Source of the DNA: Gigantopelta aegis
Taxonomy: Eukaryota; Mollusca; Gastropoda; Neomphalida; Peltospiridae
Assembly: GCF_016097555.1 (NCBI RefSeq)
Contig: NC_054706.1
Location: 22,026,929-22,090,928, forward strand
DNA length: 64,000 nt
Direction of reading: 5' to 3'
Position numbers and translations under genes: made by a program. The notes under the pieces are model-generated. The model searched no databases. It worked only from the letters and a program-made list of their open reading frames with translations, and was not told where the DNA came from. The stretch's first letter is position 1; each line of letters starts with the position of its first letter. Positions 8,047 through 26,400 of this stretch are shown in pieces.

Positions 8047-8496
8047 TCAGGTTTCACCTTTGGCGATTTTTAACATGGTATTCTCGGGTATTTTTGTGTA
8101 CGTCAGCATGGGTAGTATCACAACCAAGCAGCTAAATATGAACAGGAGATAGAAGACGAAGAAGATCCGGTCCAGTATCAACGCGATGGCCTTCCACTCC
8201 TTGATTAAAGTCTCTCGCCTGTCTTTGTCTGAGATTCTTCGCTTCAAGATCTTCGTGAAGTCCTTCATCTCACACAACTTCTTGTCTATCGCCGTCAGGT
8301 GGCCCAACTGGTTCAGCGTATCCTTTGATGGAGGAGGTAGAACGTCTACAGGAGCTTTAGGGTCCTGGCTAATCGCGTTGTCAGCAGTCACATCAGCAAT
8401 ACTAGACTCTACAGCCTCGTCTCGTGATTTGTCCTGCTGAAGAGGCTTCACGAGATCTCCCATCATCAGAAGTCTGGCACACACATCAAAGAGAAC
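8047..8496 (-). CDS. Channel gene coding exon 7 (cytoplasmic loop, TM4, stop)
   Basis: Acceptor CTTTTTTTAG|GTTCTC, 149 codons plus TGA. Encodes VLFDVCARLL, an acidic/Pro-rich variable loop of about 60 residues, the amphipathic MA-type helix (LCEMKDFTKILKRR, EWKAIALILDR) and TM4 (IFFVFYLLFIFSCLVVIL). The C-terminus ends KGET. The first 40 nt and the acceptor are the parent of 17 further tandem copies upstream in the intron. Confidence 0.93.
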   Translation of the reverse strand, partial: VLFDVCARLLMMGDLVKPLQQDKSRDEAVESSIADVTADNAISQDPKAPVDVLPPPSKDTLNQLGHLTAIDKKLCEMKDFTKILKRRISDKDRRETLIKEWKAIALILDRIFFVFYLLFIFSCLVVILPMLTYTKIPENTMLKIAKGET

Positions 8497-23400: not shown

Positions 23401-26400
23401 GTACACACCGATCGCATATGTACATATTGGTCTAATAAGTACACACTAGTCTCACACGTACACACTGATCTCATACCTACACACTGGTCTCACACTTACA
23501 TACTGGTCTCACACTTACACACTGGTCTTATACGTACACGCTGGTCTCACACGTACACACTGGTCTCATACGAACACGCTGGTCTCACACTTACACAGTG
23601 GTCTCACACTTACACACCGGTTTTATACGTACACACTGCTCCCATACGCACACACTGATGTCATACGTACACACTGGTCTAATACGTATACACTGGTCTA
23701 ATACGTATACACTGGTCTCATACGTACACACTGGTCTAATACGTATACACTGGTCTCATACGTACACACTGGTCTAATACGTATACACTGGTCTCATACG
23801 TACACACTGGTCTAATACGTATACACTGGTCTCATAGGTACACACGTCTCATACGTACATACTGGTCTCATACGTACACACTTGTCTCACATGTACATAC
23901 AGATCTAATACGTATACACTGGTCTCATACGTATACACTTGTCTCACATGTACATACATATCTAATACGTATACACTGGTCTCATACGTATACACTGGTC
24001 TCATACGTACACACAGGTGGCATACGTACACACTGCTCCCATACGCACGCACTGGTCTCATGCGTACACACTGGTCTCATATGTACACACTAGTCTTATT
24101 CGTACACACTGTTCGCATACGTATACACTGGTCCCATACGTACACACTGGTCTTATTCGTACACACCGGTCTCATACGCACACACTGGTCCCATAGATAC
24201 ACACTGGTCTCATACGCACACACTGGTCTAATACCTACACACTGGTCTAATATGTGCACACTGGTCTCATACGTGCATACTGTTATAATACGTACACACT
24301 GGTATCATACGTACACAGTGGTCTCCTACGTACACCCGGGTCCCATACGTGCATATTGGTCTCATATGTACACTCTGGTCCCATACGTACGCACTGGTCC
24401 CATACGTACTCTCCCCCCCCCCCCATACGTACACTCTGGTCCCATACGTACGCCCTGGTCCCAGACGTACTCCCTGGTCCCAGACGTACTCCCTGGTCCC
24501 ATGGGTACACCCTGGTCCCATACATACACCCATGTCCCATATGTACACACTGGTCCCATACGTACACATTGGTCCCATATGTACACCCTGGTCCCACACG
24601 TACACCCCTGTCCCACACGTACACCCTGGGCCCATACGTACACCCTGGCCCCATACGTACATACTGGTCCCAGATGTTGAGTGTGAGTATCTGGTCCTGC
24701 TCGTCGAGGTCCATGATCTGCGTCATCTGCAGGGCGAAGTAGACAGTGATCGTGTCGTTGAACTTGGCCACGGGGCGGCTGTACTTGCCTCGCATCTTGT
24801 ACTTGTTGAGGATCTTCCGAATCAGCTGGTCCTCGTACGACAGAACCTGTCTTCGTCTCCGAGCATCTGGGAAAAAACACAACATTCAATCTCCAAATAT
24901 TGGAGATTCGTCACGGGTATCTTTTAAAGGGACAGTCCTGAGTTTGCTGCAATAATGTTTAAGATGATGTCGACTAACAGAGACTTTTTAACGACCGTAA
25001 TTACATATCAAATTTTTTTTTTCTGCATAAAATATTAGTGGCTGTATATTAAATGTGTTTCTCGTCGTTCTAGTATTTTACTAGGCTAAATTTAATTTTA
25101 TTTCCATAATGTTTGGGTTTTTTGTACGTACGAAATTATTTGAAGACAAAATCCAGTTTGGACTTGTTACAAATATTAAGACGACCAGAAACGCATTGAA
25201 TATACAGACACTGATATTCAAAACAAGAACATATATTTTATGCGTATTTTTAGACGTTAAAAGATTTTATTAGTTGGAAACATCTTACAATGCAGGAAAC
25301 TCAAGACAGTCCCTTTAATATGGAAAATATCAACCCAGTCTATGTTAATGGATATTTGTCGAGGCTCTACCGAGACAAGTACCGATTAACTGGACAAGGT
25401 TGATACTATTCAACTTATAACACTTCTAAAATACAATTTTGATTTTATATTTAGTAAAGCATTGTTCGGAAGTCGCCTCACAGGGAATATGACGTCACTC
25501 ATTTCAACTAAATCTCATCAAAACATTTCGCTGAGGTATATAAGTATTTTGGGCTGTAAACAAAAGACCCATTGACAGAAAAACATCATTAACCGAGTCA
25601 ATACTGGTAAATATCAAATGAGTATATGACATGGCTATTATAGGTAAGTTAAGGGATAAAGAACAGTTATCGTAGCTAAGAAGGGATTTCTGTAGGTTCC
25701 ACACCACCATTAATTACTCCATGCTGTTCAATTAATTTCTATGTCATAGTGTATTCTGAGAAAAAAATATATCAATATCGAGAGGGTCATATGTCTACTT
25801 GTTGCTAGGAGTACTCTTGCTTAGTATGTAACCTACAAAAAAAATCATTATAGGTCGACCACAAAAAAATATCAGTTCGCCACCCTCATGCTAGAGCACC
25901 GCCTCATTTCGCTGTTATAAACGTTGCGGTATACCACTTGTGCAGAGTTGTTAATACATACTAAATATAACAAGTACAGTAACTTCAAACCAATCGGTTA
26001 TTTAAATACTACAAAGTCAACCTACTTGTAATCATCAAAGAAATATTTCAAAAGATATATCACAATTTTGTATTATTTTTTAATGAGGAACTATTTCGTA
26101 AACCGGACTATAATAAGTATCGAGCCCACAAATGGAAGTTTGATGCCTGTATAAGGGAAATGTCGACATAGTAGTGGCTTATTGTGGGAAAGTGCATATA
26201 ACAGATTCCTGGAAAACTAGCGGGTTTCATTTGAAACTACATGTCAGATTTTCGGAATGTTTGACAGCCAATAGCCGGTGAAAAATAAACCAACGTGTTC
26301 TAGTGGTGTCTAACTTTAGCTGTCATAATTAACTGTTCGCAATGATAGCATTATTACCTCCACTATGACGTTCGTCAGCGGAGCTTTTCTAATACCGATT

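Follow-up and report, generated by a model that had tools for sequence, protein, structure and literature searches.

This locus raises the question of why three large tandem arrays within a single gene should each end on one of that gene's own splice junctions. We analyzed a stretch of 64,000 nucleotides from the snail Gigantopelta aegis, referred to here as the window. On its minus strand, positions 8047-24866 hold six coding exons of an alpha-7-like nicotinic acetylcholine receptor subunit. Pfam recovered both receptor domains (Neur_chan_LBD, E = 7.6e-58; Neur_chan_memb, E = 3.1e-26), and the top-scoring solved chains for the protein were neuronal alpha-7. The gene model spans exons 2-7, the first exon not being located. 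When joined, these exons remain open for 473 residues and then reach a stop; AG precedes each of the six, and GT follows exons 2 to 6. Exon 3 probably equals a 110-bp vertebrate exon. At all three array-bearing junctions, the protein aligned to alpha-7 chains without a gap in two alignments, so that the exon ends are credible and appear well placed at these junctions.

Table 1 Coding exons, tandem arrays and the single junction duplicate of the receptor locus (positions in the window).
Feature	Position	Strand	Description
Exon 2	24661..24866	-	last 9-12 nt form the edge unit of array A
Array A	21389..24669	-	19-bp units, 173.8 copies (TRF); sits on exon 2 donor
Exon 3	19668..19777	-	110 bp; last 10 nt form the edge unit of array B
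Array B	18703..19677	-	24-bp units, ~39 copies; sits on exon 3 donor
Exon 4	16450..16904	-	neither junction copied
Exon 5	14352..14438	-	neither junction copied
Exon 6 acceptor copy	11141..11206	-	single, diverged; intron end plus part matching 27 exonic nt
Exon 6	10900..11015	-	acceptor has one upstream duplicate
Array C	8457..9843	-	76-79-bp units, ~18 copies; sits on exon 7 acceptor
Exon 7	8047..8496	-	last coding exon, ends in TGA; first 40 nt form the edge unit of array C

Both TRF and the joining of the exons bore out the original prediction that the exon 2 donor, the exon 3 donor and the exon 7 acceptor are edges of tandem arrays. The predicted copy numbers of about 170, 40 and 18 agree with the TRF values of 173.8, 38.5 and 17.8, and the predicted unit lengths stood for arrays A and B, while the 77 bp given for array C is corrected to 76-79 bp. 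Array A takes up 3272 bp of its 4883-bp intron. Array B merges two overlapping TRF rows, a main one at 18756-19677 (period 24, 38.5 copies) and a looser one at 18703-18891 (period 25, 7.7 copies). The main row of array C covers 8457-9836 (period 79, 17.8 copies), with longer-period rows reaching 9843; each of its units carries a T-rich tract and AG, followed by 40 nt that match exon 7 and by GT. According to TRF, the array edges intrude into the exons by 9 nt in A (about 12 by eye), 10 nt in B and 40 nt in C. The terminal unit of each array is the real exon edge, and the extra copies are intronic. Parsing gave 176 units in A (174 near-full) and 42 in B (41 near-full), the exon-edge unit counted in both, and 19 in C, of which 17 were near-full and two partial edge units were left out. 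TRF matches reached 79% in A and 81% in B. The three unit consensuses resembled one another no more than shuffled sequences did (P = 0.34-0.81), in line with the predicted independent origin of the arrays. In the whole window, A, B and C are the only arrays with a period of at least 10 and more than 12 copies. The receptor introns also hold three smaller arrays (13623-13918, 13927-14111 and 14675-14717) and several simple-sequence tracts, none of them on a junction and none mentioned in the original prediction.

A Pfam scan of 21 of the window's 231 open segments, picked by eye in search of other genes as controls, returned two matches, both to transposase domains, and among these 21 no second gene emerged for comparison. 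These lie in different frames on the minus strand (HTH_Tnp_Tc3_2 at 42582-42929 and DDE_3 at 42098-42547) and mark a Tc-type transposase remnant at 42098-42929. Dispersed repeats with similar conceptual peptides occur at 9911-10168 and 12394-12675 (minus), at 4843-5055 (plus) and elsewhere; they resemble a tRNA-derived SINE. Rfam returned nothing at gathering scores, these repeats included. One tRNA-like sequence, its anticodon undetermined, was called by ARAGORN under bacterial settings at 48449-48520 on the plus strand.

We surveyed the 11 junctions of exons 2-7 with 24-nt windows centered on each, scoring as a copy any match of at least 18/24 within 5 kb. Four junctions were copied locally, namely the exon 2 and exon 3 donors and the exon 6 and exon 7 acceptors; for the remaining seven, the best match in the 5-kb search was at most 15/24. 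The copy of the exon 6 acceptor, 66 bp long and 152 bp upstream, scored 72 in local alignment, where none of 500 single-base shuffles exceeded 30, which upholds the claim that this acceptor had been duplicated once.

Could repeat-rich introns have placed three arrays on junctions by chance, in a gene that was noticed for that very reason? We randomized the arrays within their own introns while limiting exon intrusion to 40, 20 or 12 nt. For the six intronic minisatellites, three of which touch a junction, at least three overlaps arose with P = 0.0013, 0.0002 and 0.00004, respectively (C itself intrudes 40 nt). When the test took in every TRF locus of the introns, 11 with the simple-sequence tracts, P climbed to 0.007 at 40 nt and was 0.0002 at 12 nt. 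These values cover this locus alone and overstate the case, because the locus was picked for looking striking. The original prediction that chance placement is implausible is thus fairly supported at this locus, but is weakened by the post hoc choice. The controls pull in both directions. Among 2000 intron positions sampled outside the three arrays, 22% had a local copy, as did 44% of 2000 positions drawn at random from the full locus, arrays included, which favors chance; against it, only 38 of 1244 exon-interior positions had a local copy, 32 of them flanking the copied acceptors of exons 6 and 7, and a fourth junction, the exon 6 acceptor, was copied as well. Taken together, we consider chance unlikely as an account of the three arrays, and the three small off-junction arrays count against a strict junction rule.

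Repeats of this kind are already known, since cases from lancelets, from IFI6 and from human exon-intron boundaries have been published. The assertion that no described system takes this form therefore does not stand: the 'mirages' of amphioxus are the same kind of thing (PMC3087553, PMC3902484). They were reported in Adh3, in the globins BflGb6 and BflGb9 and in other genes, as minisatellite-like tandem duplications over the exon-intron boundary, 5' and 3' alike, with gene-dependent unit lengths and AG/GT retained in many, though not all, copies (PMC3087553). The two haplotypes of BflGb6 carry 6 and 3 units, and BflGb9 has one duplicate (PMC3087553), and splicing is apparently undisturbed (PMC3087553, PMC3902484). 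The receptor locus shares the boundary-spanning tandem units, at donors and an acceptor, the exon-edge terminal unit, the varying unit lengths and the AG/GT kept in many or most copies. Unlike the cephalochordate cases, it brings together three large arrays and a duplicate, and its longest array runs to about 174 units against far fewer in BflGb6 and BflGb9 (PMC3087553); the number of mirage-type events in a single gene is larger here than in the published cases compared.

Other precedents are less close in form. Lancelet PGBD5 carries tandem repeats over splice sites, and Adh and troponin C are mentioned with it; its 108-bp repeat is described as a triplication, and the gene is a different one from ours (PMC3902484). 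The minisatellite of human IFI6 (6-16) contains multiple splice donors, two downstream units of which are used to give three mRNAs (PMC4526556, citing Turri 1995). Units carry splice donors there as here, but those of IFI6 are truly used, while ours are candidate donors only. Human genes in segmental duplications have minisatellite-sized tandem repeats on exon-intron boundaries, as in the receptor gene; theirs average ~4 units and alter the gene structure of paralogues (PMC2812944). In the tandem genomic duplication model of intron gain (Rogers 1989), duplication likewise supplies extra splice sites (PMC4974935), although the copies described here sit inside introns. Among the matches listed for molluscs, in small listings, we recognized no case of junction-spanning arrays, and we claim no priority beyond lancelets and primates. 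The available text on abalone describes a 27-bp intronic minisatellite with no mention of junctions seen there (PMC6905558), and that on cone snails describes simple repeats in introns (PMC3862624).

We therefore propose, with a probability of about 0.78, that the receptor arrays are mirages, that is, minisatellites founded by neutral tandem duplication across splice junctions. Each array would have begun when a short segment lying by chance across a junction was duplicated in tandem. One intact junction would stay joined to the exon, and the extra copy would land inside the intron and be spliced away. Because that copy is intronic, the duplication would be free of cost, provided that splicing continues at the outermost site. 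The array may later have grown by unequal exchange or slippage, while purifying selection on coding and splicing would hold the exon-edge unit, which may thus persist as an intact seed. Four elements of this account are inferred: that splicing is confined to the outermost sites, that the arrays arose neutrally, that exchange enlarged them and that the edge unit acts as a seed. Since the exon ends encode protein that aligns with alpha-7 chains, the exons were most likely the source of the copies in the arrays.

The consequences of using the inner sites bear directly on whether selection retains them. If used, 198 of the 204 extra sites are predicted to break the protein. Frameshifts or early stops would follow from 143 of the 149 extra donors of array A and from all 38 of array B, and a transcript spliced at any of the 17 extra acceptors of array C would read through 15 codons, identical or nearly so between copies, before meeting a stop. 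The six inner donors of A predicted to keep the full frame lie at 24603-24333 on the minus strand and would lengthen exon 2 by 57-327 nt. From the loss of frame at nearly all inner sites, it follows that the copies are not spare sites. The splice signal itself is well kept, with GT in 149 of 174 near-full units of A and 38 of 41 of B (the exon-edge unit, without GT, being included in each denominator) and AG in 17 of 17 of C. In A, GT was the best retained of 18 adjacent pairs (0.86; the other pairs averaged 0.73), and in B it ranked fourth of 23 (0.93 vs. 0.76). This is a slight lean that falls short of a passed test; other pairs are kept almost equally in A or better in B, so the splice signal does not clearly stand out. 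Retention by selection, as a buffer or for alternative isoforms, could draw on this lean and on the six in-frame donors; set against the broken frames, we regard it as highly improbable. Of the two options first suggested for the locus, selection for redundant splice sites is thus not supported, and tolerance of them is plausible.

Array C might instead act as a regulatory switch, in which use of an upstream acceptor would yield a receptor truncated past its presumed third membrane segment, or mRNA decay. The uniform predicted stop speaks for this, as does the real exon start, which is unchanged over the 40 nt after AG behind 12 of the 17 upstream acceptors. This sameness of the units is explained by recent homogeneous expansion, with no function needed, and we give the switch very little credence.

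Site strength and order set a problem for splicing. In U1 pairing energy, the native donor of array A ranked 51 of 150 (-3.1 kcal/mol, with others down to -7.4), which counts against the mirage reading; that of array B ranked second of 39. In transcription order, the real donor comes first in A and B, and the real acceptor of C comes last, behind 17 copies, all preceded by a similar T-rich tract. Correct splicing of C is the real puzzle of the locus. Since the T-rich tract is common to all 17 and the 40 nt to 12, a strictly neutral account has to assume some unexplained rule by which these acceptors are skipped; our guess is that the acceptor is chosen because the long last exon is recognized as one unit.

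The units also carry traces of array history. Array C is young, with a mean pairwise unit identity of 0.97 and exon positions 6-40 invariant across the 17 near-full units; A and B, with their lower TRF match levels, are older. In unit C, an 11-nt stretch links the exonic to the intronic part; its derivation from the exon sequence that comes next was not supported (P = 0.15). In array A, the segments at about 22899-23198 and 22036-22335 (minus strand) are identical over 300 bp (100%) at an offset of 863 bp, reflecting either a recent block duplication or an assembly fault. An assembly error in array copy number or edges could account for such a block in array A, where likeness is about 80% elsewhere, yet we find it barely credible given the many differences among A and B units and the intact flanking coding exons, and copy number would be affected more readily than edges. 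Array A also has TAT as its last three bases at both ends, a shared edge state that is weak evidence because 14 of 176 units have TAT.

For the mirage reading, the repeated block is the pattern expected from block exchange. Also in its favor are the mutually unrelated units, the frame loss at inner sites and, in array B, the closer likeness to consensus of units nearer the exon (rho = -0.52, P = 0.0005). The seed effect was not borne out in A, whose units showed no change with distance in their likeness to the exon (rho = -0.06, P = 0.45) or to the consensus (rho = 0.09, P = 0.26); in B, likeness to the exon did not fall significantly with distance (rho = -0.23, P = 0.16).

A bolder possibility is that junctions in this lineage are true hotspots of tandem duplication or favored seeds of expansion, that mirages are a general mode of animal intron growth and not peculiar to lancelets, and that array C makes the spliceosome pass 17 near copies; we hold this only tentatively and think it rather doubtful. 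If the pattern is repeated in other genes and species, exon edges would seed intron growth outside lancelets. The locus offers a natural test of how the spliceosome chooses among near copies, with the real site first at the donors and last at the acceptor.
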